This document shows, piece by piece, positions 1-17,174 of a stretch of DNA of 64,000 nucleotides (positions are counted from its first letter, which is position 1; every line of letters begins with the position of its first letter). Source of the stretch: Roseomonas sp. (GTDB lineage: Bacteria; Pseudomonadota; Alphaproteobacteria; Acetobacterales; Acetobacteraceae); NCBI GenBank assembly GCA_020249925.1, contig JADCER010000010.1:1-64000 (forward strand), read 5' to 3'. The position numbers and the translations under genes were made by a program. The notes under the pieces are model-generated. The model saw only the letters and a list, made by a program, of their open reading frames with translations. It ran no database searches and had not been told where the DNA came from.

Positions 1-222
1 GCAAGTTCAGGGTAGGGGTCGCTATTCGCTTGCTTTGTAACGCTCACGCTAACGCTCGCGCGGGTTCGAATATTTGTGCCAAAAAACTTGCGTCGAAACA
101 AGGGAGCGATGGCGGTCAGGTCGACAAATTCAATAATGAAGTCAAAGGAAATACTCCACTCGGTATACTCCAGTGCTTCTCAAGAAATGTGGACTAAGTG
201 AATATCTGATGTCGTGATTCGC
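1..222. other. Left-edge AT-rich non-coding stretch
   Basis: No convincing reading frame or RNA gene is seen here. The stretch lies downstream of the nuclease gene that ends at 223 and is AT-rich like it. It holds a short tandem-like repeat near 39-60 (acgctcacgct / acgctcgcg). The edge of the window hides what lies further left, so further members of the reverse-transcriptase cassette could lie beyond position 1. Confidence 0.4.
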
Positions 223-918
223 TCACCGTGAAATATCGCCGCTGCAAATAGTTAGCGCTACGCGCTCGCATAATTCTTGAGCGGATTGCCCTGAAATTTC
301 GCGTGCAATGTTATCCAAATTGACTTGAAACCAAATACCTTGGCGTGGATTAAAAATCGCAATATCTTGAATGTCAAATTGCCTTGAAGCGTGATTCAGG
401 GCGCAGTACGTTATTAGCTGTTTTATGTCCGTTCCCTTAAAAGACCGGTCAACAGCCTTTATTTCAAAGAGACTTACGCCTGAAATCACATCAGCTTCTG
501 ATGCATCAACATAGCCGCATCCATTAATCAAAGGACGTGTTATCATTTCTTCGCCACGCTGCCTGAAAAAACTTATCAAATTTTTTTCAATTCCTTTAAT
601 TTGATCTTGTTCAGCGAGGGACAGCGGCGCGGTTAAATCTTGTTCTTCACCCATTAGCGGAAGCAATTTTTTCTTTGCCTCTAAGAGAGAAATTTCTTCG
701 ATTTTCTCCAGATTAGTCAAACTAACAAGATTACAAAATCTGCTGAACGCAGTCTCAGATACTAACGCGGCGCGAATCTTCTCAGGTGGTTTATTAATGG
801 GTGGCGACCATCGCTGAATCAACTCGAGATTGAGGCGCCGCACGAAGCGCTCTAAAGAAGGTGCATGCGATGTCCAGAACGAGTTATGTAGGTTAGCAAA
901 ACTTGACGCGTCGATCAT
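223..918 (-). CDS. RecB-like PD-(D/E)XK nuclease-fold protein coupled to reverse transcriptase
   Basis: This 231-residue protein has no family name I can assign. Its centre carries the hallmarks of a RecB-like PD-(D/E)XK nuclease: Asp143 in ADVISG, the FEIKAV core with Glu152 and Lys154, and QLITY (Gln167, Tyr171) matching the QxxxY motif of the RecB subgroup. A helical N-terminal part of about 110 residues precedes it. The start codon overlaps the stop of the upstream reverse transcriptase in an ATGA (915-918), so the two are probably translated together. Base composition is much more AT-rich than the neighbouring chromosome, which suggests horizontal transfer. The inferred role is nucleic-acid cleavage within an RT-based defence module. 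Neither activity nor substrate can be read from the sequence. Confidence 0.7.
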   Translation of the reverse strand: MIDASSFANLHNSFWTSHAPSLERFVRRLNLELIQRWSPPINKPPEKIRAALVSETAFSRFCNLVSLTNLEKIEEISLLEAKKKLLPLMGEEQDLTAPLSLAEQDQIKGIEKNLISFFRQRGEEMITRPLINGCGYVDASEADVISGVSLFEIKAVDRSFKGTDIKQLITYCALNHASRQFDIQDIAIFNPRQGIWFQVNLDNIAREISGQSAQELCERVALTICSGDISR

Positions 919-2558
919 AGCGGAAAGTCTTTCTTGCCGCGACCCGCCCGATCACCCGCCCAGGAAAGAATAAATTTTTCAAAAGGATTAAGTTCCTTCT
1001 TTATATGCTCGCGCCAATGCTTACCTTCGTCTTTCAATGAATAGGAAGCGACTAAAAATGATCGCTTTTGCGGCCCGCTAAGCTGTCGATACTCATTACG
1101 TAAATCAGAAAGCCAATACCATTCGCCCCACAAAGCCATAATGAGAATTATATCTCGACGAACAATGTCTGATTTCCTTTCAATATATAAGTCTTTCAAT
1201 AATTGTTGGATTTCTTCCGTATTGGTGCGCTGGAGAATCCTTAGGGCGAAACAAAGATGAACATCCACTCGGAAGACATGAGAGTCCGACTGAATCATTT
1301 TTATAATACGAGCAGTTATTAAAAATTTTTTTTCCTCTCCGAGCGTTTCAAAAATTTTGTCTACCATCATAAGCGCTGAAGAAAAAATGGGATACAGTAT
1401 CTCGGCATTCTCGACAATCGATAAGACTGCATTGTCTCTTGTGTGGCCATCTAAATATTCTATAGCAGCAACAAGTTTTCGGGAAAGTGCGATGTGAATA
1501 CGTGATTTATTTAGCTCATCCTGTAGAAGCTCTATAATATCGAATTCGCGAATTTTCGTCTTCAAGTCCTCATAATCATTTTCTGCGGTTGGCGAATATG
1601 GATCAAAGCGTAGCGAAAATCGCATCAATCGTTTGGAGCGCTCATGCTTGTCTACGATGGCTCTCCCCACCTCCTCGTCATCGCCGGCATTGGGAGGGAT
1701 CTGTAGCGGACTAGTCGCACGAAACTCGCTAGCCGTCATAATTCTAGTTTTCGATTTCTGAAGAGAGAGCCCCTGATTTTCGAACAATTTCTCAGAGAGA
1801 AATATTGTCTGACGATAAGCTTCCTCCCTTGTGCGCGCAAAAAGATGGAAGTCGTCAGCGAAGCGGGTAAACTTAATTCTCTGGCCCAGGAGAAGACGAT
1901 CAATTTGATTTATCGTAAGCTCTGATAAGATACGAGCGGCTGGCCCTCCAACGGGCAACCCAAAAGAACGAGTATTTGAAAAATTAGCGAGAAAGGACAT
2001 GATTTTTCTTGGGTATTCCGTCTCTGCATCAATTTGAAGGAGAGCATTTTCGAGCCTGTGATGATTGACTCTTGGATAAAATTCGCCGATATCACAAATT
2101 GTAACGAACTCATACTCTTTGGCATATTCCTCTGACTTCTTCATAAAGGAATACCATCCGAACTTCCGATCAAATAAATCACCGGTCTCTTCATCGGGTA
2201 AATAGCGATAAGAAAAGACTGAATTTGCATCAGTTTTCAGTCTAACCGCTTCAATCTTTGAAGATAGAGCAATAACACAACTAAGAAAATGTACATTCCA
2301 CAAGGGATCGAGCTGGGTTCCCCAGCGGAAGCCAAAATAGGAGACCGGAATCAACGCATTTGTATTGGATGGCGGAAATCGGGCAAGGTAATCATTAAAA
2401 TTTTGATCATATTCACATACTGTATCAATGAACTCTTTCTGTCGATCAAAAATTGCATGCCCCTCAAAACTTCTTGGAAAAATATCTGTATCGCCATGCT
2501 TAATTACATTTTGAACTGCCATCTGTACGGCTGCACGAAATTTATCCTTTTTTATCAT
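915..2558 (-). CDS. Reverse transcriptase with C-terminal helical repeats (UG/Abi-like)
   Basis: The protein is about 547 residues from the ATG at 2558, which has GAGG five bases upstream. A TTG at 2639 would add 27 residues but has no clear ribosome site. The polymerase part shows motif A (CDIGEFYP, Asp near 156), the GLPVGGPAAR motif B region, and the catalytic RFADDF box near 232-237. From about residue 300 to the end it is alpha-helical, resembling the HEAT-like tails of the UG/Abi group of reverse transcriptases involved in phage defence. No group II intron maturase domain and no retron VTG motif are seen. It overlaps the nuclease gene by 4 bases. Membership in UG/Abi is inferred from architecture; the exact subgroup cannot be decided by eye. 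Confidence 0.85.
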   Translation of the reverse strand: MIKKDKFRAAVQMAVQNVIKHGDTDIFPRSFEGHAIFDRQKEFIDTVCEYDQNFNDYLARFPPSNTNALIPVSYFGFRWGTQLDPLWNVHFLSCVIALSSKIEAVRLKTDANSVFSYRYLPDEETGDLFDRKFGWYSFMKKSEEYAKEYEFVTICDIGEFYPRVNHHRLENALLQIDAETEYPRKIMSFLANFSNTRSFGLPVGGPAARILSELTINQIDRLLLGQRIKFTRFADDFHLFARTREEAYRQTIFLSEKLFENQGLSLQKSKTRIMTASEFRATSPLQIPPNAGDDEEVGRAIVDKHERSKRLMRFSLRFDPYSPTAENDYEDLKTKIREFDIIELLQDELNKSRIHIALSRKLVAAIEYLDGHTRDNAVLSIVENAEILYPIFSSALMMVDKIFETLGEEKKFLITARIIKMIQSDSHVFRVDVHLCFALRILQRTNTEEIQQLLKDLYIERKSDIVRRDIILIMALWGEWYWLSDLRNEYRQLSGPQKRSFLVASYSLKDEGKHWREHIKKELNPFEKFILSWAGDRAGRGKKDFPL

Positions 2559-2874
2559 CGAGGCCTCGATTTTTTCTAGAGCTAAAACATAACAATAGGA
2601 CGATTCTGTCACGATAACCGAGATGAAAGGACAACTCAAGACGCTTTGAGTATGTCATTATTATTTCGTTTTGTTACCTAAATTCTGTTATTTTTTTCTC
2701 GTCTCGCTCAATAAGCTTGGGGCGCACGTGCGTACGCTGACGCCGCTCTATTGATGAGGACGGATGGTGATCTAGCCCCCCGAGATTCGAGGACCATACG
2801 CCACTACTCTCGAGTAGTAATGGAATTCAAAGCTTCAGCCGGCACCGAAAACCCCCAACCCATGCGCGGCCCCC
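2559..2874. other. Non-coding region upstream of the RT, with palindromes
   Basis: This interval lies between the reverse transcriptase start and the end of ftsK. Its RT-proximal half is AT-rich. It contains a perfect palindrome CGCACGTGCG at 2723-2732 and an inverted repeat ACTACTC-TC-GAGTAGT at 2803-2818. It could hold the RT promoter, a template non-coding RNA as in several RT defence systems, and the ftsK transcription end. None of these is proven by sequence alone. Confidence 0.35.
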
Positions 2875-5343
2875 TCAATCCCGCGGTCCCGGCGCCAGCA
2901 CTTCCCGCTTACCCACATGATTGGCCGGCCCAACCACGCCTTCCTTTTCCATCTGCTCAATCAGCTTCGCCGCGCGATTATAGCCAATGTTGAGATGCCG
3001 CTGCACGAAGCTTGTGCTCGCCTTGCCTTCGCGCGTGACCAGCGCCACCGCCTGATCATAGAGCGATCCTTCCGCATCCGTATTGCCGCCCAGCATGCCG
3101 AGCATGGCAACCGAATCATCCTCATCCTCGGTTTCGGTCACTTCATCCACATAGGCGGGCTCACCCTGGGCGCGGAGGAATTCAACAATCCGCTCCACCT
3201 CAGTATCTGACACAAAGGGGCCATGTACGCGGGCAATGCGCCCGCCGCCCGGCATATGCAGCATATCGCCCTGGCCGAGCAGCTGTTCCGCGCCCTGTTC
3301 ACCCAGGATGGTGCGGCTATCAATCTTGGAGGTGACCTGAAAGGAAATGCGCGTCGGGAAATTCGCCTTGATCGTGCCGGTGATGACATCCACCGAAGGG
3401 CGTTGCGTTGCCATGATCACATGGATACCCGCGGCACGCGCCATTTGCGCCAGCCTTTGCACGGCGGCTTCAATTTCCTTGCCGGCCACGATCATCAGAT
3501 CGGCCATTTCATCAATCACCACCACAATCATGGGCAGTGCTTCCAGCGCCAGCGGCTGATCTTCAAACACCGGCTTATTGGTTTCCGGATCAAAGCCGGT
3601 TTGCACGCGCCTGGTCAGCACATCGCCGCGCTGGCGGGCTGCGGTCACCTTTTCATTGTAGCCGGCGATATTGCGCACGCCCAATTGGCTCATCGCACGG
3701 TAGCGGCGCTCCATTTCCCGCACGGTCCATTTCAGCGCGCCAATTGCCTTGGGTGGTTCCGTCACCACCGGCGCCAACAGATGCGGAATGCGGTCATAGA
3801 CCGAAAGCTCCAGCATCTTCGGGTCAATCATGATGAAGCGGCATTCATCCGGGCTGAAGCGATACAGCAGGCTCAGGATCATTGTATTGATCCCGACCGA
3901 TTTGCCCGAACCCGTGGTGCCCGCAATCAGCAAATGCGGCATGCGCGCAAGATCGGCGATCACTGGCGTACCGCCAATATCCTTACCCAGCGCCAAGGGC
4001 AGCTTGCCCGGATGGCGATGCCAGCTTTCATCGCTGAACATTTCGGAAAGGAACACGGTTTCGCGCTTGGCATTCGGCATTTCAATGCCGATCACATTGC
4101 GCCCCGGTACGGTTGCGATACGCACCGCAATCAGGCTCATGGACCGGGCGATATCATCAGCCAGGCCAATCACGCGCGCGGATTTGGTGCCGGGGGCGGG
4201 TTCCAATTCGTAAAGCGTCACCACCGGGCCAGGGCGGATTTCCACAATGCGCCCGCGCACGCCGTAATCTTCCAACACGCTTTCCAGGAGGCGCGCATTG
4301 GCTTGCAACGATTCCTCGGAAGGCCGGCCCACACGCTGCGTGGGGGCGGCGGTCAGCAGATCCAGCGGCGGCAGCGCCCAGGCGCCATCACCAAGATCAA
4401 GGGCGGGTTGCTGCGCCGGCCGGCGCGCAGGTTCCGGCTGTTTACGAGGGCGCACTGGCGGGGCTTCACGCGGGGCCTCGGGCGTCTCAGGGCGGATCGG
4501 CATGGCCTCGGCCGCCGCATCGGCGGCGCGGAGCATGGGGCCAAGCGGGATTTCCGGTTCCTGGCGGCGGAATAGGCGACCAGTGCGGGATTTGAAGCGC
4601 GCACCAAGCCGGGCGAAGAAGCCGGGCTTTTTGGGCTCAGCTTCCTCAGCGGGGCGCAGCCTTTCCGCACCGGCCCGCGCCGCATCCAAGGCGGCTTGGC
4701 TGGCGCCAAGGGCCGCGCGGCCGGCGCCGCGCCATTCGCCGAAGGTCAGGCCGCAGCCGATAAAGCCCGCCCCCACCGCGCCAAAGACCACACCTGCCTT
4801 ACCCAGTAGGGCGCCATAGGCGCCGAAATTGCCCGAAAGCCAGGAAATCACGCCATCAGCCAAAAGCGGGCCAATGGCGCCGCCCGCACCGGCAAGGCTG
4901 GGTGCCTCGGGCGGCAAGGGGGCAAGGCTCAGCGCGGCGGCGCCAAGCGGCAGCCCAAGGGCCAAGCCGAAAAGCCGGAAGGGAATGAAGCCAAGGCCGC
5001 GTTGCGTTGCCAGCCTAAAGGCCCAGGCGAGCAGCGCCAGCACCGGCAAGGCTGCGGCATAACCAAAGCCCTGCAATAGGATATCGGCCACCACCGCCCC
5101 TGCCGGCCCGGCAAGGTTGCTCACGGGCCGTGCGGTTGCCGTATTCAGCGAAGGATCGGCGGGATCGTAGCTCAGCAGCGCCGCCGCCAGCCCAAGCGCC
5201 ACCAAAGCCGCCAGCAGGCCGCAAAATTCCATCAGGCGCCGGCTGAGCAGCGCGCGCAGGTCGGCTGAGGCAAAGCGCCGCCGGACGGCGCCTGGTTCAG
5301 CAGAGGGCCTGGAATCGGCCGGGAGAAAGAGGCGAGGCATCAA
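2875..5343 (-). CDS. ftsK: DNA translocase FtsK
   Basis: This 822-residue septal DNA pump couples chromosome segregation and dimer resolution to division. The N-terminus carries four hydrophobic segments (about residues 35-200). A Pro/Ala-rich linker follows, then the RecA-like motor with Walker A (AGTTGSGKS, about residue 475) and Walker B ([12 protein letters not shown]). The C-terminal winged-helix gamma domain (from about residue 755) ends in KREVLAP. Length is typical of alphaproteobacterial FtsK. It is transcribed away from the LOG-family gene across a gap of about 200 bases. The plus-strand frames inside it are antisense shadows. Confidence 0.97.
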
Positions 5344-5543
5344 GACAGCGCTTTAGAGTGGAAAGGAACTCTATGCCGGAAGCTGTTCTTTGCCCAGGGT
5401 TTTTTGCAGTGAGGCCGGCATGCCGATTCGCGGCGACTCGTGACCGTTGCAGCAGAGTCACGCTTTTGGGCCAGCGCAGCCCCCATCGCCGCCCCGGCAC
5501 GCTTCATGCCAAGATGCGCGCCGGATGAGGGGAGAAGCTTCCA

Positions 5544-6431
5544 ATGCCCGATAATGGCGCCCAAAAGCACTCACGCAGCTTTCTGCTGGCGGTGGAGGAT
5601 CAGGAATTCCTGCTGCGCGATGAAATGCGCCCGTTCCGCTTCGGCATGGAATACGCCAAGGCCGAATATGCGCTGCGCGATTGGGGGGTGCGGTCCACGG
5701 TGGTGGTGTTTGGTTCCGCCCGCACCCCAAGCGCTGAGGAAGCCGCGGCACTCGCCAAAAAGGCGCGCGGGGCGGCGGAAAAACGCGCCGCCCACAAGGC
5801 ACTGGAACGGTCCCGTTTTTATGAGGATGCGCGCGCCTTTGCCCGCATTGTCTCGATGCGCGGCGGCGCGCTCGCCGCATCGGGCGCGGCGCGCGATAAT
5901 GTGATTGCAACGGGCGGTGGCCCCGGGATCATGGAAGCGGCCAATCGCGGCGCGTCCGAATGCGGCGCGCCTTCCATCGGCTTCAACATCACCCTGCCGC
6001 ATGAACAGGCGCCCAATTCCTGGTCCACGCCGGCGCTGACCTTTCGCTTCCATTACTTCGCCATGCGCAAGATGCACCTTGCCATGCGCGCCAATGCGCT
6101 TGCGGTTTTCCCTGGTGGCTTCGGGACTTTTGACGAATTGTTCGAAGTGCTGACGCTTGCGCAATCGGAAAAGATGCGCCCGGTGCCGATTGTGCTTTTT
6201 GGGCGCGATTACTGGACCAAGGTGGTGAATTTCAACGCCATGGTGGATGAAGGCATGATCAGTGAGGCTGATCTGAAGCTGTTTGAAATCGTGGACAATC
6301 CCGAAGAAGGCTGGGCGAGCCTATTGCAGCGCGGGCTCTCGCCCGCCGCTTCCCCGCCCTTGAAGCTCAACCTGCCGCCGGCGGCAGGCAGGCAGCGGCC
6401 AGCAACGCGAAAGCCGCGGCGCGGTGGCTGA
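5544..6431 (+). CDS. LOG-family (TIGR00730) Rossmann-fold hydrolase
   Basis: This 295-residue cytoplasmic protein belongs to the lysine-decarboxylase-like/LOG family. Characterised members release free bases from cytokinin riboside monophosphates or hydrolyse nucleotide 5'-monophosphates. The family signatures are [14 protein letters not shown] near residue 123 and [10 protein letters not shown] near residue 190. It is longer at the N-terminus than plant LOG proteins, like the bacterial type II members. GGGGAGAAG lies upstream of the ATG at 5544. Its 3' end overlaps the convergent rdgB gene by 65 bases. The physiological substrate is unknown. Confidence 0.88.
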
Positions 6432-6993
6432 TGCGGTGCTTCTCATCCGGGTCCATTTCACCGAAGGTCTCGCTGCGTCCCTGAGGCACGAACATGGGAT
6501 CATAGCCAAAGCCATGCGCGCCGCGTGGCGGCCATACCCAAACGCCCTTTGCCTTGCCCTCAAAACCTTCCTCATGCCCATCGGGCCAGGCGAGGACGAG
6601 CGCGCAGGTGAACCAGGCCGCGCGATCTGCGGCATGCTTGGCAAGTTCATGTACCTTGCCCATGGCGAGCGCATAATCCCGCCCACCTTCCGGGCGCATG
6701 GCCCAATCGGCGGTGTAAACGCCCGGCGCACCATCCAGCGCCGCCACCGAAAACCCTGAATCATCCGAAAGCGCCGTCATTCCTGCCGCACGCGCTGCCG
6801 CATGCGCCTTGATCCGTGCATTGCCGAGGAAACTGGTCTCAGTCTCCTCAGGCTCCGGCAGGCCGAGCGCGCCGGCGCTGGTCACCTCAATGCCATGCGG
6901 TGCCAGCAGGGCCGCCACTTCACGCAGCTTCCCGGCGTTATGCGTGGCAATCACAATCTTCTCGCCGCGTGAGAGGCGCCGATGCGCCATCAC
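6367..6993 (-). CDS. rdgB: RdgB/HAM1 dITP/XTP pyrophosphatase
   Basis: This 208-residue enzyme hydrolyses non-canonical purine triphosphates (dITP, XTP) to monophosphates, keeping deaminated bases out of DNA and RNA. The N-terminus has the ATHNAGK substrate-binding motif; SDDSGF and the SHRAAA region near the C-terminus follow in the expected order. Its ATG overlaps the stop of the upstream rph in an ATGA (6990-6993), so the two form an operon. The last 65 bases overlap the convergent LOG-family gene. Confidence 0.95.
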
Positions 6994-7709
6994 TTATCAA
7001 CCGCAAGCCGCTGCTTGGCGAAAAGCGCTGCCGTGCCTTCGCGCGCATGGCCCATCAGCGCCTGCAAATCGGCTTCCGTGAAAGGGGCGCCCTCGGCAGT
7101 GCCCTGAATTTCGACAATCCCGCCCGAGGCCGTCAGCACAAAATTCGCATCCGCATCGGCCTTGCTGTCCTCATCATAATCAAGATCAAGCACGGGCACG
7201 CCCTGATAGATGCCGCAGGAAATCGCCGCCACCTGATCCTTCAGCGGGTTGCGCGTGATGATGTTCATGCGCTTGCAATGTTCAAACGCCAGATGCAGTG
7301 CCACCCAAGCGCCGGTGATGGAAGCGCAGCGCGTGCCGCCATCGGCGGTCAGCACATCGCAATCCAGCGTGATGGTCATCTCGCCCATCGCCTTCAGATC
7401 CGTCACGGCACGAAGGCTGCGCCCGATCAGGCGCTGGATTTCCTGCGTGCGGCCGGATTGCTTGCCGCGCGCCGCTTCGCGGTCCCCGCGCGTATGGGTC
7501 GCACGCGGCAACATGCCATATTCCGCCGTAACCCAGCCCTGGCCCTGGCCGCGCAGGAAGGGCGGGACCTTGCCTTCGACGCTTGCGGTGCACAGCACCT
7601 CGGTCAGGCCCATGCGGATCACGCAGGAACCTTCCGCATGGCGGGCGACGCCGGGTTGGATGGAAACGGTGCGAAGAGCGCCAGGGGCGCGGCCTGAGGG
7701 TCTGGACAT
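6990..7709 (-). CDS. rph: Ribonuclease PH
   Basis: RNase PH trims the 3' ends of tRNA precursors by phosphorolysis. The ATG at 7709 gives 239 residues starting MSRPSGR, the usual N-terminus. An upstream in-frame extension to 7817 would run through the shared promoter and past the hrcA start, and is unlikely. Conserved features include the [15 protein letters not shown] segment and the [10 protein letters not shown] active-site region. It is divergent from hrcA across about 100 bases and coupled to rdgB downstream. The CIRCE-like element at 7721-7747 lies immediately upstream of this start, so HrcA may control both directions. Confidence 0.95.
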
Positions 7710-7720
7710 GGGCCGCGCGG

Positions 7721-7747
7721 TTAGCACAGGCGAAGCGCCGGCGCTAA
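7721..7747. promoter_or_regulatory. CIRCE-like inverted repeat (probable HrcA operator)
   Basis: The element is 27 bases: TTAGCACAG, nine spacer bases, CGGCGCTAA. The CIRCE consensus TTAGCACTC-N9-GAGTGCTAA has the same 9-9-9 geometry. Seven of nine left-arm and six of nine right-arm positions match, and the arms are mutual inverted repeats at 7 of 9 positions. It sits between rph and hrcA, where HrcA autoregulation is expected. The inner positions are degenerate, so affinity may be reduced. Confidence 0.65.
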
Positions 7748-7808
7748 CCCGTTGACGCGCCCGGTGCAGGCCCCATACTCGGATCATGACAAATCGGGAC
7801 CACAACCC

Positions 7809-8879
7809 GTGACCCATACGCCCGCGAAGCTGACCCCCGGGCTGCCGGCCGCGGCCGGGCTGGATAGCCGTTCGGCGCTGATTTTGCGCGAATTGGTGGA
7901 AACCTATGTCGCGACGGGCGAACCTGTGGGGTCGCGCACCTTGTCGCGCCGGCTGCCACTCGGTTTATCCCCGGCCACCATCCGCAATGCCATGGCAGAT
8001 CTGGAAGATGCTGGGCTGCTTTACGCGCCGCATACCTCGGCCGGGCGGCTGCCCACCGAACGCGGGCTTCGGCTTTTCGTGGATGGCTTGCTGGAATTTG
8101 GCGCGCTGGGTGAAGAAGACCGGGATGCGATTGCGGCGCGCTGCGCGGCATCGGGCCGGTCCTTGCAGGAAACCCTGGCCGAGGCCGGGCTGATGCTCTC
8201 GGGCCTCGCCGGCGCGGCGGGGCTGGTGGTGGCACCGAAAACGGAAAACCCGGTGCGGCATATTGAATTTGTGGCGCTTGGTCCGGGCCGCGCGCTGGTG
8301 GTGCTGGTGCATGAAGGCGGGCAGGTGGAAAACCGCGTCATTGAAGTGCCGGCCGGCCTGCCGCCTTCGGCGCTCACGCAAGCCTCCAACTACCTGAATG
8401 CGCGGCTGGCTGGCCGCACCTTGGAAGAAACCCGGACCAAGGTCGCCGAGGAAATCGCTGCCGATCGCACGGCTTTGGATGCGCTGACGCAGCAGGTGAT
8501 CTCGGCCGGGCTGGCCACCTGGTCGGGCGGCGGCGGCGGGTCGCTCATTCTGCGCGGTCAGTCGCGGCTATTGCAGAACCTGGATCAGGCGGCGCAGGTG
8601 CAAGAAATCCAGCGGCTGTTCGAAAGGCTGGAAGCGCAGGAAACCATGCTGCGTCTGTTGGAATTGGCGCAGCGCGGCGAAGGCGTGCAGATTTTCATCG
8701 GTGCCGAAAGCGGTCTGTTCGATAGTGCGGGACTTTCCGTAGTTGTCGCCCCCTTCCGCAATGGGCAGGAAAAGATCGTCGGCGCCATTGGCGTGATCGG
8801 GCCGACACGCATCAATTACGGGCGCGTGATTCCGGTGGTGGATTACACCGCGCGCGTGATCGGCAGATTGCTCGGTTGA
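7809..8879 (+). CDS. hrcA: Heat-inducible transcriptional repressor HrcA
   Basis: HrcA binds CIRCE operators and represses chaperone genes under normal conditions. I prefer the GTG at 7809 (356 residues); a TTG at 7752 would also be in frame but lies next to the operator. The N-terminal winged helix has the [13 protein letters not shown] recognition region, followed by the [12 protein letters not shown] motif. The C-terminal GAF-like domain contains [16 protein letters not shown]. It is divergent from rph. The usual downstream partner grpE is absent; a tartrate dehydratase gene follows instead. Confidence 0.93.
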
Positions 8880-8924
8880 ACAGGACGCGTGCCTGACGGC
8901 GCGCGAGACGAGACAGGAAACGTC

Positions 8925-10103
8925 ATGCGTATTACCTCCATCCGCCAGGGCGTGGTGCCCATCAGCAGTGCCATCGCCAATGCCTATATTGATTTTTCGA
9001 AAATGACGGCGAGTGTTGTCGCCATCACGGTGGAAGATGGCGCGGGCAAGAAGGCCACGGGCTATGGCTTCAATTCCAATGGCCGCTATGCGCAGCCTGG
9101 CTTGCTGGCGGAACGCTTTATCCCGCGCCTGCAAGGGGCGACGGAAGCGGAATTGACGCTTGAGAATGGCGGGCTGAACGCCGCCGGCGCCTGGGCCGCC
9201 ATGATGCGCAATGAAAAGCCGGGCGGGCATGGTGATCGGTCCGTCGCGGTGGGTGTGCTGGATATGGCGCTTTGGGATGCGGCGGCAAAGCTTGCGGGCG
9301 TGCCGCTGTGGCGCCTGCTTGCGGATCGCTATCGCAATGGTCAGGCGGATGAAAGCGCCTGGGTTTATGCAGCCGGCGGCTATTACTATCCCGGCAAGGG
9401 CGTGGATGCGCTGGTTGAGGAAATGAAGCGCTACCTCGGCATGGGTTACACCACCGTGAAAATGAAAATCGGTGGTGCGCCGGGCACCTCGGTCAAGGAT
9501 GCGCTCACGGAAGATCTGGCACGCATTGAAGCAGTGGTGAAATTGCTGGGCGGTGATGGATCGCGCCTTGCGGTGGATGTGAATGGCCGCTTTGGCCTGC
9601 ATGCGGCGCTGACCTATGGCGCGGCGCTGCAACCCTTTGGGCTGCGCTGGTATGAGGAACCGCTCGATCCGCTGGATTATTCAACCCATGCTGCGCTTGC
9701 GGAACAATATATGCCGCCAATCGCCACGGGCGAGAATCTGTTTTCCATGATGGATGCGCGCAATTTGATCCGCCATGGTGGCCTGCGTCCGGATCGCGAT
9801 ATTCTGCAATTCGATCCCGCGCTGTCTTACGGCTTGGTTGAGTATTTGCGCACGCTTGAAATGCTGGTGCGCCATGGCTGGTCACCCCGGCGCTGCGTGC
9901 CGCATGGCGGGCATCAATTCGCGCTGAATATCGCGGTCGGTCTTGGGCTTGGCGGCAATGAAAGCTACCCGGAAGTTTTCGCGCCCTTTGGCGGTTTTGC
10001 CGATAGCACGCCGGTGGTGGATGGGCGGATCAAAATGCCCGATATTCCCGGCATTGGGTTTGAGGCGAAATCGGCGCTTTGGGCCGTCTTGAAGGATTTG
10101 TAG
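8925..10103 (+). CDS. tarD: D(-)-tartrate dehydratase, enolase superfamily
   Basis: This 392-residue member of the mandelate-racemase branch of the enolase superfamily closely resembles, from memory, the characterised Bradyrhizobium D-tartrate dehydratase, which forms oxaloacetate. Recognisable landmarks are GYGFNSNGRY, MMRNEKPGGHGDRSVAVG, YAAGGYYYPGKG, the TVKMKIGG catalytic lysine strand, metal-ligand regions AVDVNGRF and YEEPLDPLDY, and the CVPHGGHQ histidine loop. The start is the ATG at 8925 with CAGGAAA just upstream; the in-frame GTG at 8889 lacks this. It stands alone between hrcA and a convergent methyltransferase, with no tartrate transporter adjacent. Confidence 0.88.
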   Translation: MRITSIRQGVVPISSAIANAYIDFSKMTASVVAITVEDGAGKKATGYGFNSNGRYAQPGLLAERFIPRLQGATEAELTLENGGLNAAGAWAAMMRNEKPGGHGDRSVAVGVLDMALWDAAAKLAGVPLWRLLADRYRNGQADESAWVYAAGGYYYPGKGVDALVEEMKRYLGMGYTTVKMKIGGAPGTSVKDALTEDLARIEAVVKLLGGDGSRLAVDVNGRFGLHAALTYGAALQPFGLRWYEEPLDPLDYSTHAALAEQYMPPIATGENLFSMMDARNLIRHGGLRPDRDILQFDPALSYGLVEYLRTLEMLVRHGWSPRRCVPHGGHQFALNIAVGLGLGGNESYPEVFAPFGGFADSTPVVDGRIKMPDIPGIGFEAKSALWAVLKDL

Positions 10104-10114
10104 CTTTGCGGCCT

Positions 10115-10924
10115 TCAGCCCTTGCGGATCACGACCAAGCTATTGTCCCCAAGCGGTAAGTTGGGCCGCAATAGGGTGACGTAATCCACGATGTAGGAAG
10201 TTTTGCTGAAGAATTCCTTGTAACGCAAAAGGTCACGCGGGTTGACATCCTCAATCACGTAAATGCCGTGTTGCGCCAGATGTTTGATTGAATGGGTGAA
10301 GAGGCAGCTACCGGCGTCGAAAACATGCAAGCCATCATCCAGCATGAAATCGAAACCTGTTTCGCCAAGCTGCTGCCAGTAAGCATCAATGGCCGCAGGG
10401 TCGCGCTGATCAATGTAATGCGTCCTGATCCGATCTTCGGTGAAGAGGATATCTCGGTCTATATCCGCGCCGTAAATCTGGGCATTGGGGAAATAGTCAC
10501 GCCAGACGCGCAGCGACGCGCCGGGCTTTCCATTCTCCCTCATTGAGGAAGCCAGGTTCGGGTTGTTTGTTCCCAAGCCGCACTCAAAGACCTTTGTTAT
10601 TCCATGGCGACAATGACCAAACAGCCGCTCGTAGTAATCCGCATAACTATGCGACGGCCAGGGATAAGGGTGACCGTCCAGCCGCAATTCGCCCTTGTCG
10701 GAACCATATTGATCACAGAGTGCGTTCAAGAGCGAATGTCGATTCTTGCCATAATGGGCTATTATCCGAAAGTTCAGCCCAGCGTTCAACATTTCGGCAA
10801 ATTGGACGAGCGTTAGCGTTTTTGCCGGATTTTCCAAAGACCACTTCCTTTCGGCCCCACCTTCCGCGCGGAGGGCATTTGATCCATATTGCCGAAAATC
10901 TAGCGCGATGGAAACTCCCCGCAT
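10115..10924 (-). CDS. Class I SAM-dependent methyltransferase-like protein
   Basis: The 269-residue protein has a Rossmann-type methyltransferase pattern: KVFECGLGTN as the glycine-rich SAM loop, QIYGADIDRD with the acidic ribose-binding end of strand 2, DFMLDDGLH, then YVIEDVNPRD. This pattern resembles sugar and natural-product O-methyltransferases rather than rRNA enzymes. The composition is less GC-rich than its neighbours, so it may be acquired. The start at 10924 has only a weak ribosome site; an internal ATG at 10792 is possible. It is divergent from the NnrU-family gene and convergent with tarD. The acceptor is unknown. Confidence 0.75.
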   Translation of the reverse strand: MRGVSIALDFRQYGSNALRAEGGAERKWSLENPAKTLTLVQFAEMLNAGLNFRIIAHYGKNRHSLLNALCDQYGSDKGELRLDGHPYPWPSHSYADYYERLFGHCRHGITKVFECGLGTNNPNLASSMRENGKPGASLRVWRDYFPNAQIYGADIDRDILFTEDRIRTHYIDQRDPAAIDAYWQQLGETGFDFMLDDGLHVFDAGSCLFTHSIKHLAQHGIYVIEDVNPRDLLRYKEFFSKTSYIVDYVTLLRPNLPLGDNSLVVIRKG

Positions 10925-10977
10925 GTCTCAAGACGCTCTATACTATAAACACGGGTGCTCCCCGGAAAGGCAATAGC

Positions 10978-11664
10978 ATGGAAGGCATCTTCCCCCTGTT
11001 GATGGCAGCGGTGTTTTGGTTCGTGACGCATCATGGCCTGGCCAGTGGTGTGATGCGGGCCAGGCTGGTCGCTGGCCTCGGCGCGAATGGCTTTCGCATT
11101 TTCTATTCCATCCTGTCCGTGGTTGCCTTGGTGCTGCTCGCGCGCGCCTCGGGCGCGGCAGACCCCGTGCCGCTTTGGACCGCGCCGGCCTGGCTTCGCC
11201 TGGTCCTTGCGCTGATCATGCTGCCGGCTTTTCTGTTCTTTGCCGCTGGGCTTTTGCGCAACCCGACAGGGATCGGCGGAGAGGGTCTCGTTGGGCAACA
11301 GATACGCGGCATTCAGCGCATCACGCGCCACCCCATGCTCTGGTCCTTCGCGCTTTGGGCTTTGGTGCATGTTCTCGGCAATGGCGATCTGGCGAGTGTG
11401 ATCTTCTTCGGCACCTTTGCCATCAGCGCCCTGATTGGCATGCCTTCCATTGATCGCAAGCTTGCCGCACGCGACCCGGAGGCTGCGGCAAAACTGCAGG
11501 CCGCAACCTCCATCCTGCCCTTCGGCGCCATCCTGGCCGGGCGCAATCGGCTGGTGCTGGCGGAAATCGGCTGGCTCGCACCCGCGCTCGCTGTCATCGG
11601 CTGGGCCGTGACGCTGCATTTCCATGCGCGCTTCTTTGGCGTGCCGGCGCTGCTGCCCTTCTGA
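10978..11664 (+). CDS. NnrU-family integral membrane protein
   Basis: This 228-residue protein has about six hydrophobic segments and matches the NnrU/MddA-like isoprenylcysteine-methyltransferase-fold family. The key stretch is GIQRITRHPMLWSFALWALVH, with the RHP motif. NnrU was first described next to denitrification genes and is related to plant 15-cis-zeta-carotene isomerase; no such genes occur here. The ATG at 10978 follows a GGAAAGG ribosome site. A longer upstream extension would overlap the divergent methyltransferase. Function in this context is unassigned. Confidence 0.82.
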   Translation: MEGIFPLLMAAVFWFVTHHGLASGVMRARLVAGLGANGFRIFYSILSVVALVLLARASGAADPVPLWTAPAWLRLVLALIMLPAFLFFAAGLLRNPTGIGGEGLVGQQIRGIQRITRHPMLWSFALWALVHVLGNGDLASVIFFGTFAISALIGMPSIDRKLAARDPEAAAKLQAATSILPFGAILAGRNRLVLAEIGWLAPALAVIGWAVTLHFHARFFGVPALLPF

Positions 11665-14587: not shown

Positions 14588-15958
14588 ATGAAGCGCGGAA
14601 TTTTGCGTTATGCGGGCATAGGTGCGGCCTTTGCCGCCGGCGTGGTGGTGGGCCCCCTGGTGGCCGCCTGGGCACAGGAAGGCAGCCGGGCGGAGACCTA
14701 TCGGCTGCTCAACCTGTTTGGCGATGTGTTTGAACGGGTGCGCGCCGAATATGTGGAGCCGGTGAATGACCGGGACGCGATCGAAAACGCGATCCAGGGC
14801 ATGCTGTCCAGCCTTGACCCGCATTCATCCTATTTGAACCAGCGCAGCTTCCGCGACATGCAAAGCCAGACCCGCGGCGAATTCGGCGGGCTTGGCATCG
14901 AAGTCACGCAGGAAGGCGGCTATATCAAGGTCATCAGCCCAATTGATGAAACCCCCGCCGCGCGCGCCGGCATCCGGCCCGGCGATTTCATTACTCATCT
15001 GAACGGCACTTCCGTCCAGGGCCTGACCTTGCAGGAAGCGGTGGAACAGATGCGCGGGCAGCGCAACACCCAAATCCGGCTGACCATCCGCCGCCAGGGC
15101 ACGGAACGGCCGATTGAACTGACGCTGACGCGCGATGTGATCCGCCCGCAAGTGGTCCGCTTCCGGCTGGAAGATGGCAATCTGGGCTATGTCCGCATCA
15201 CCTCCTTCAATGAACAGACCGAAGCAGGGTTGCGGCGCGCGCTTCAGCAATTGAAGCAGCAGGCGCAGGGTGGGCTGAAGGGCCTTGTGCTGGATTTGCG
15301 CAATAATCCGGGTGGTTTGCTCGATCAGGCGGTGCAGGTCACAGATGATTTCCTGACGCAGGGGGAAATTGTTTCCACCCGCGCACGCCGGACAGAAGAT
15401 GCGCAGCGCTGGCAGGCCAAGGCCGGTGATATCACTGATGGTCTGCCGATTGTGGTGCTGATCAATGGCGGCAGCGCGAGTGCCAGTGAAATCGTCGCCG
15501 GCGCGCTTCAGGATCATCGCCGCGCCGTTGTCCTCGGCGTGAAATCCTTCGGCAAGGGCAGCGTGCAAACCGTGATGCCCGTGCCCGGCCATGGCGCGAT
15601 CCGGTTGACCACGGCGCGCTATTACACGCCCTCTGGCAGGTCCATCCAAGGCACGGGGATTGAACCCGATATCGAGGTACTGGCGACGCGGGAGGAAACG
15701 CGCGCTGGGCAGCAACAGCGCGATCGGGAAGCGGATTTGCGCCGTTCACTCCGCAATGAGACCCAGGCGGAAACCCGCGCCCCGATCCCGCCGCCGCCGC
15801 TCAATCTGCCGGCGGGCCTCGTGGAACGTGTGGCGCGCCAGCCTGCGGAAGGCGCCCCGGCCTTTGACCCGACCAAGCCGGAAACCGATCATCAACTTCA
15901 GCAGGCTTTGATCCTGCTGCGCGGCATGGCCTCGGCGCCACGCGGCGGGCAGCGCTGA
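14588..15958 (+). CDS. ctpA: Carboxy-terminal processing protease CtpA (S41)
   Basis: This periplasmic serine protease has an N-terminal signal/anchor, a PDZ domain (GLGIEVTQEGGYIKV onward, about residues 98-180), and the S41 catalytic core with nucleophile serine in NGGSASASEI and lysine in SFGKGSVQ. It processes or degrades envelope proteins; in several bacteria it turns over peptidoglycan hydrolases, which fits the upstream EnvC-like activator. The ATG at 14588 follows GAGAAGGA. A TTG at 14579 is a weaker alternative. Length 456 residues is normal. Confidence 0.95.
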   Translation: MKRGILRYAGIGAAFAAGVVVGPLVAAWAQEGSRAETYRLLNLFGDVFERVRAEYVEPVNDRDAIENAIQGMLSSLDPHSSYLNQRSFRDMQSQTRGEFGGLGIEVTQEGGYIKVISPIDETPAARAGIRPGDFITHLNGTSVQGLTLQEAVEQMRGQRNTQIRLTIRRQGTERPIELTLTRDVIRPQVVRFRLEDGNLGYVRITSFNEQTEAGLRRALQQLKQQAQGGLKGLVLDLRNNPGGLLDQAVQVTDDFLTQGEIVSTRARRTEDAQRWQAKAGDITDGLPIVVLINGGSASASEIVAGALQDHRRAVVLGVKSFGKGSVQTVMPVPGHGAIRLTTARYYTPSGRSIQGTGIEPDIEVLATREETRAGQQQRDREADLRRSLRNETQAETRAPIPPPPLNLPAGLVERVARQPAEGAPAFDPTKPETDHQLQQALILLRGMASAPRGGQR

Positions 15959-15965
15959 GGGCGTG

Positions 15966-17174
15966 ATGGCAGAAGGATTATCGCGCCGGGTATTCGCCGG
16001 CTGGCGCGGGCTTGGCCTGTTTTGGGTATTGGTGCTGCTGCTGCTGGGCGGCGGTGGGCTTTGGCTTGATCAATTGGGGCCGCCTGAACGGCACGAAACC
16101 CTGGCCGAGGCGCCGGCAACACCCGAAGCGGCGGCAACGCCGCCTGCCCCCGCGCCGGTGGCAGAAACGCCAACCCCAACCGCTACAGCGCCAGAACCCG
16201 CCGCAGCACCGCCGCCGCCTGGACAGGCTGAGGCACCAACACCCGGCGCGCCAGATGAGCCAGGCCCGGTTGCCGAGGCAGCCGCGCAAACCCCCGCCGC
16301 CCCCGCGCCGCCGCCGCTGGATGTACCGGTTGCGGCACCTGACTTCCCACCTGCGCGGCCCATCGCCGCGCCCGATCCCGCCTTATTGGAACAGGGCCGC
16401 TTTGGGACGCTGCCGCGGGTTGGGGCTGATGGTCGGACCTCCATTCGCGCCTATGCCGGGCAATTTGACCGGCAGGATACCCGGCCGCGCATTGGCATCA
16501 TCGTTGCCGATATCGGGATTTCCAATGCTCAAACGGAAGACGCGATCCGCCGCCTGCCGCCGTCCGTGACTTTCGCGATTTCGCCCTATGCGCCGCGTGC
16601 GGCCCAAGTGGCGGAGCGGCTGCGCGCCAAGGGTTCTGAGACACTGATCGGCCTGCCGCTGGAACCGGCGGGCTATCCGTTGAATGACCCCGGCAATCGC
16701 GCCCTGCTGACCGGGCGTTCCTCGGCTGAGAATATCGCCAATTTGGAATGGGTGCTCTCACGCTTTCCGGGCTATGTCGGCGCCATTGGTGTGGTCGGCG
16801 GCATGCGGGGCGAACGCTTCGCCGCCATGGAGCAAAGCTATTTCGCGCTGCAGGAATCGCTCCGCAATCGTGGCCTGTTGTTTGTGGATGCCCGCCCAGG
16901 TGTCGCCGGGCCGGCCCGCGCCTGGGGCCGTGCGGTGGATGTGATTCTGGATGAACCCGCCACAAGGACGGAAATCGAACGGCGCCTTGGTGAGCTTGAA
17001 ACAATCGCCAAGGCGCGCGGTTCCGCGCTTGGTCTGGCAAATGCCGCAACCCCGGTGGTGGTGGATCGGCTGGTCGCCTGGGCAGTGGGGCTGGAGCGGC
17101 GCGGCGTGGTGCTGGCGCCGGTTTCCGTCCTCATTCGCCGCCCGCCGGAGACTGCGGAAAACCGCACGCAATGA
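15966..17174 (+). CDS. Divergent polysaccharide deacetylase (YibQ family)
   Basis: The protein of about 402 residues has one N-terminal membrane segment (LGLFWVLVLLLLGGGGLWL) and a long Pro/Ala-rich linker (about residues 40-145). A C-terminal DUF610/YibQ domain follows, beginning RIGIIVADIGISNAQ. This family has the NodB fold but commonly lacks the full metal-ligand set. Here the usual second Asp after VAD is replaced by IGIS and the usual HxPME segment reads GLPLEP, so catalysis is doubtful. It is probably an inner-membrane-anchored envelope protein. It overlaps rppH by 4 bases and follows ctpA. Confidence 0.88.
   Translation: MAEGLSRRVFAGWRGLGLFWVLVLLLLGGGGLWLDQLGPPERHETLAEAPATPEAAATPPAPAPVAETPTPTATAPEPAAAPPPPGQAEAPTPGAPDEPGPVAEAAAQTPAAPAPPPLDVPVAAPDFPPARPIAAPDPALLEQGRFGTLPRVGADGRTSIRAYAGQFDRQDTRPRIGIIVADIGISNAQTEDAIRRLPPSVTFAISPYAPRAAQVAERLRAKGSETLIGLPLEPAGYPLNDPGNRALLTGRSSAENIANLEWVLSRFPGYVGAIGVVGGMRGERFAAMEQSYFALQESLRNRGLLFVDARPGVAGPARAWGRAVDVILDEPATRTEIERRLGELETIAKARGSALGLANAATPVVVDRLVAWAVGLERRGVVLAPVSVLIRRPPETAENRTQ

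Follow-up and report, generated by a model that had tools for sequence, protein, structure and literature searches.

A copy of the DRT type 8 reverse transcriptase-nuclease pair in an AT-rich cassette between addA and ftsK of a Roseomonas genome

The window (the whole stretch of 64,000 nucleotides analyzed here, positions 1 to 64,000 of contig JADCER010000010.1 from the Roseomonas sp. assembly GCA_020249925.1) carries two overlapping minus-strand genes close to its start. The upstream gene (positions 915 to 2558) encodes a reverse transcriptase (RT) of 547 aa; its ATG lies at 2558 and its stop codon ends at 915, and although an in-frame TTG is present further upstream at 2639, close relatives nonetheless align from the ATG. 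The downstream gene (positions 223 to 918, from the ATG at 918 to the last base of the stop codon at 223) encodes a RecB-like PD-(D/E)XK nuclease of 231 aa, and the RT stop and the nuclease start share the tetranucleotide ATGA (positions 915 to 918, minus strand; the plus strand reads TCAT). The RT contains the motif R232-F-A-D235-D236-F with the box C catalytic pair D235-D236 (positions 1851 to 1856), the box A aspartate D156 (positions 2091 to 2093), and a C-terminal helical repeat region spanning residues 325 to 537 (positions 948 to 1586), while the nuclease contains D143 (positions 490 to 492), E152-x-K154 (positions 457 to 465), and Q167-xxx-Y171 (positions 406 to 420), all on the minus strand. 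These observations bear out the original prediction, which had described an RFADDF-containing RT overlapping a second gene by ATGA and had placed the D, E-x-K, and QxxxY residues of the 231-aa protein where we find them.

Searches with the PADLOC models recovered a dedicated family for each protein. The best family for the RT is Drt8 (PDLC03783; E = 7.4e-158, residues 9 to 536), with a score of 525 bits versus 147 for the next PADLOC family, and that for the nuclease is RTasPDDEXK (PDLC03797; E = 1.2e-65, residues 1 to 231). A separate nuclease family, PDC-S61, was rejected as a second-ranked weak match (E = 1.4e-06 in PADLOC). The RT also matches the Pfam RVT_1 model (E = 7.7e-15) and is the only protein genome-wide to do so at an E value of 0.001; taken with the two PADLOC values, this confirms that the two-gene observation is sound and above chance. 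The Drt8 model corresponds to the UG7 group, Mestre et al. reportedly defined DRT6-9 in 2022, and to our knowledge neither this host nor this insertion site is known for DRT8. The introduction of PMC12596737 gives the PD-(D/E)XK domain as a characteristic of DRT8. Given this link in print and the existence of models for both proteins, the locus is a copy of a known system, the DRT type 8 RT plus its nuclease, and the earlier suggestion that the pairing might be undescribed fails: the RT falls in a characterized group, DRT8, that is already paired with this nuclease.

Conservation and predicted structure of the RT agree with this assignment. Both box C aspartates are invariant in 93/93 aligned RTs, the box A aspartate is present in 90 of the 93 (the other 3 have a gap), and Y117, Y161, S198, Y321, and Y329 are invariant in 46/46, Y321 and Y329 being candidate priming residues. 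In an AlphaFold2 model, in which the helical repeat region has pLDDT values mostly >85, a helical tail runs to the C end. With VIA-align, this model aligns near end-to-end with DRT6, AbiK, DRT4, AbiA, and Abi-P2, and residues 325 to 537 are covered in the alignments with AbiK, DRT4, DRT6, and Abi-P2; the DRT2, DRT9, and retron structures align mainly over the RT domain, which does not by itself prove the remainder to be different. Class 1 UG/Abi RTs are described as carrying an alpha-helical HEAT-like repeat domain fused to the RT, and, going by the predicted model, the window RT has such a tail. The PADLOC match, the model, and the structure alignment thus concur on an RT of the UG/Abi type that ends in a long helical tail, as had been predicted from the letters of the DNA.

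For the nuclease, we aligned 81 sequences, comprising 77 from genome loci (of the best 80 of 128 described below), 3 from plasmid loci, and that of the window. G133, D143, E152, K154, D164, Q167, and Y171 are invariant in 81/81, and E55 is conserved in 78/81. The D...E-x-K...QxxxY motif is a mark of the RecB/Cas4-type PD-(D/E)XK superfamily. The predicted model (pLDDT 95) resembles AdnA, MGME1, ACE1/Cas4, AddAB, and Dna2, in keeping with the RecB-like fold proposed earlier, and its nearest structural matches are for the most part DNA-end-trimming enzymes. An iron-sulfur cluster is unlikely, because the alignment has no invariant cysteine (the best column reaches 44/70).

The two genes occupy an AT-rich cassette (positions 16 to 2874) that lies between the stop codon of addA (positions 13 to 15, plus strand) and that of ftsK (positions 2875 to 2877, minus strand). 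Its GC fraction is 0.42 over positions 223 to 2558 versus 0.64 over 2878 to 9750, and no open reading frame of >100 aa is present in the remainder of the cassette. The identity of the left neighbor was established across a contig boundary: the window begins, at the end of its contig (C2), with 125 bases that recur exactly, as their reverse complement, over the first 125 bases of contig C8, and C8 runs into addA (NCBIfam TIGR02784, above cutoff), whose stop codon is the one at positions 13 to 15, so that the adjacency of the two contigs is based on this 125-base overlap and on shared gene order. The other neighbor has FtsK domains (Pfam, above cutoff). In two congeneric genomes (G750 and G745), addA and ftsK face each other with only 11 and 8 bases, respectively, between the aligned ends, and in nine other genomes the addA and ftsK matches lie on different contigs. 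Given its composition, it is likelier that the ~2.86-kb cassette was inserted in the window genome than that it was lost from G750 and G745; the AT-rich insert and the two empty sites together uphold the horizontal transfer that had been proposed. A third congeneric genome (G751) has 774 bases at the same junction (contig C125, positions 15507 to 16280; L127), ~0.77 kb of unrelated DNA, and the addA-ftsK junction may be a favored insertion site. No match was found among 50,697 phage records at an E value of 1e-15, four stretches matched in a scan of viral contigs without any being confirmed, and a search for the same DNA on plasmids found none.

To follow the pairing across genomes, we searched the contigs of genomes with an alignment built from six paired RTs and took the best 80 of 128 confirmed relatives, a sample skewed toward paired loci by a query itself built from such loci. 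In 77 of these best 80 of 128, a nuclease gene lies downstream of the RT on the same strand; in the other three (L073, L079, and L093), the available sequence stops inside the RT gene and pairing is untestable. With longest-ORF starts, the two genes overlap in 72 of the 77 loci (again of the best 80 of 128) and by exactly 4 nt in 11; each of the five nonoverlapping loci (L022, L041, L060, L086, and L088) has a split or interrupted gene. A wider sample came from searches with the Drt8 model over evenly drawn genomes, which, own genome included, recovered matches in 6/385 genomes of the class at an E value of 1e-40 and in 4/398 genomes of the phylum at 1e-60. Of the eight other matches, two (L002 and L004) have the nuclease, and six (L005 to L007 and L094 to L096) have no recognizable nuclease in the ~1.4 kb downstream that was examined, where a divergent one could escape recognition. 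Among the 398 phylum genomes, the RTasPDDEXK model matched the own genome alone. Distant protein relatives also occur on nine plasmid records, and of the six inspected, three (L009, L011, and L012) have the nuclease and three (L008, L010, and L013) are without it. A relative of the window operon is also present in Gluconacetobacter (L014). For the four unpaired RTs that were scanned (L005, L008, L010, and L094), Drt8 is the best-scoring model.

In a quick tree of the RTs (85 rows, with long branches flagged), a single branch with support of 94 parts 75 paired from 9 unpaired RTs, and the window's own subclade has 15 rows versus 61 in the other paired subclade. The Drt8-model RTs without a recognizable nuclease (L005 to L008, L010, L013, and L094 to L096) make up the other side of this tree. 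Since only two of the eight evenly drawn matches are paired and one branch separates the two groups, pairing appears from these comparisons to be a stable property of one clade rather than of all Drt8-model matches. The conserved pairing that the original interpretation would require thus stands within that clade (77/80 of the best 80 of 128) and does not extend to 6/8 of the evenly drawn matches. Over 67 loci (the 75 minus near-copies), RT and nuclease distances correlate with r = 0.97, the best of 1,000 permutations giving 0.24; the correlation holds in the 14 loci of the window's subclade (r = 0.95, against at most 0.71 by permutation) and in the other 53 loci (r = 0.93, against at most 0.19). 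Such coinheritance can be explained by linkage alone.

Breakage of one or the other gene was seen at a few loci. An intact nuclease gene stands beside a broken RT gene in four (L022, L025, L083, and L086), an intact RT gene beside a split nuclease gene in one (L088), and both genes are broken in two. At L086, an IS1595-type transposase gene (positions 2837 to 3814, minus strand) splits the RT gene and leaves the nuclease gene whole, and at the other three broken-RT loci errors in draft assemblies are possible. The pattern of gene loss was tried as a way to tell toxin from antitoxin and was rejected, the loci being too few and the counts near the ratio expected from the gene lengths.

We also compared the 350 nt on each side of the operon between pairs of loci binned by RT identity, the pairs not being independent of one another. 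At 50 to 80% RT identity, similarity was found in 0/968 pairs upstream and in 0/978 pairs downstream, versus 1011/1143 pairs for 350 nt of coding DNA. At RT identities of at least 80%, the flanks match in 10/48 upstream and 7/43 downstream pairs, and at 30 to 50% short downstream matches occur in 3/663 pairs; among close relatives, flanks were without similarity save in one near-identical pair. The RNA of DRT2 is located upstream, and five DRT2 loci served as a control: upstream similarity was recovered in 2/2 pairs at 53 to 55% RT identity (193 nt at 70 to 71%) and in both closer pairs (87% and 94%), with 0/6 at 38 to 39%. The flank of one control locus (L131) overlaps its annotated start, and the L128-L132 pair is free of such overlap. 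A DRT2-like flanking RNA would probably have been detected at the DRT8 loci, and one that evolves faster or lies farther away would have been missed. Rfam, which may cover retron RNAs only in part, gave no match at E values up to 1 in positions 1 to 3600 of the window, and neither NAxxH nor VTG, motifs of retron RTs, is found as a string in the window RT. The missing flank RNA fits untemplated, protein-primed synthesis by what is predicted to be a class 1-like RT.

Several of the relatives have other defense genes nearby. Two unrelated genomes have an AbiP2-family RT close to their DRT8 pair (L056, positions 8422 to 9927, minus strand; L049, positions 3291 to 4811, plus strand; E of ~5e-173 in PADLOC), and a UG17 RT of the DRT10 group lies ~2 kb upstream of a third pair (L045, positions 2515 to 3957, plus strand; E = 3.7e-137). 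On an Aminobacter plasmid, the gene after a nuclease-less Drt8-type RT encodes a retron type VII-A1 protein, an RT-DUF3800 (L013, positions 6767 to 8653, plus strand; E = 2.1e-251), and on a Rhizobium plasmid, a UvrD-type helicase and an AAA/OLD-TOPRIM protein, presumably a Gabija-like pair, stand beside another such RT (L008, positions 7113 to 11098, minus strand). At a plasmid-borne DRT8 pair, the adjoining genes carry the annotation of an ABC-three component system (L009, positions 1175 to 3944, minus strand).

Our preferred interpretation, which we hold with evenly balanced confidence, is of a horizontally acquired chromosomal DRT8 operon, predicted to act in phage defense, with an untemplated RT and a nuclease that serves as its RT-licensed effector. 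The RT would make untemplated, protein-linked single-stranded DNA (ssDNA); the nuclease, made together with it, would be licensed by the RT or its DNA product during phage infection; and phage DNA, host DNA, or both would then be cut, so that the infected cell yields no phage. This interpretation draws on the PADLOC matches of both proteins and the DRT8 entry in PMC12596737, on the conserved pairing, the tree split, and the correlated distances, on the invariant active-site residues of both proteins, on the end-to-end alignments of the RT model and the RecB-type fold of the nuclease, and on flank RNA not being found where the DRT2 control was positive. An effector role is further suggested by the table of the review PMC10952713, which enters a Cap17 effector for DRT8, and by the four loci with an intact nuclease beside a broken RT. 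However, linkage alone would account for the coinheritance, and the RT may act without the nuclease, as six of the eight evenly drawn matches have none that is recognizable.

The nearest folds of the nuclease, being mostly DNA-end trimmers, equally fit a different arrangement, which we regard as possible though clearly less probable: the ssDNA made by the RT would itself be toxic, the nuclease would trim it constantly as a safety valve, and it would accumulate once phage proteins shielded the DNA or inhibited the nuclease. The closeness of the nuclease to enzymes that trim ssDNA ends would suit such a role, and host nucleases curb the products of other DRTs (RecBCD for DRT3, ExoI for DRT9, and an exonuclease for DRT4); the nuclease-less Drt8-type RTs could likewise lean on nucleases of the host. 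Against it, the Cap17 entry suggests an effector slot, and at L088 the RT is intact while the nuclease is split. In its specific form, an untemplated RT with an in-operon exonuclease gate of the RecB/MGME1 type, triggered when a phage interferes with the nuclease, the idea is somewhat more tentative still. The absence of a recognizable nuclease from 6/8 evenly drawn matches bears equally on this arrangement and on the preferred RT-licensed effector and so leaves our assessment of the two unchanged.

That DNA made by the RT silences a constitutively toxic nuclease, which phage attack on this DNA would free, is unlikely. Retrons work by such antitoxin logic, the authors of the DRT1 study see a retron-like logic there, and the strong coinheritance of RT and nuclease would suit it, but the four loci with an intact nuclease and a broken RT, few as they are, disfavor a nuclease restrained solely by the RT. 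An undescribed two-gene system is highly improbable: NCBIfam lacks a model for the nuclease, the RT passes none of the NCBIfam models, and Pfam names the RT domain alone, but each protein has a PADLOC model of its own and DRT8 is in print with a PD-(D/E)XK domain in the introduction of PMC12596737.

The find itself is a further copy of a named defense system. Its by-products bear on a mechanism that two papers of 2026 treat as open: PMC13213688 and PMC13314766 state that DRT8 protects and call its mechanism unestablished or unresolved. The original proposal, in which a product of the RT activates the nuclease or is processed by it, accordingly stays an inference. Our literature search, with most subscription journals outside its coverage, found no publication on the DRT8 mechanism and no published activity measurement for the RT-nuclease pair. 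A class 1-like RT model, no conserved flank RNA, a RecB/MGME1-like nuclease, and nuclease-less relatives leave few mechanistic options and give some new hints, within a known system, on how DRT8 may work.

In comparison with known systems, retrons with nuclease effectors likewise tie an RT to an effector gene, but the window has no Rfam match in positions 1 to 3600 and its RT lacks NAxxH and VTG. Class 2 DRTs (DRT2, DRT9, and DRT10) have the RT domain in common with it, DRT9 and DRT2 aligning over 248 to 251 residues, whereas their sequence-conserved cis RNA was not found within 350 nt at DRT8 loci. AbiK, AbiA, Abi-P2, DRT4, and DRT6 are single-gene systems with a like RT architecture, including the helical repeats; here, a separate nuclease gene follows the RT. 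RecB, AddAB, Cas4, Dna2, and MGME1 share the fold and the D...E-x-K...QxxxY residues of the nuclease, which in the window stands alone, without a helicase. Were the nuclease to act as a constant trimmer, it would be the in-operon counterpart of the RecBCD and ExoI control of DRT3 and DRT9. From DRT type 8 itself no difference was found, both proteins matching its PADLOC models near full length in the order RT, then nuclease.
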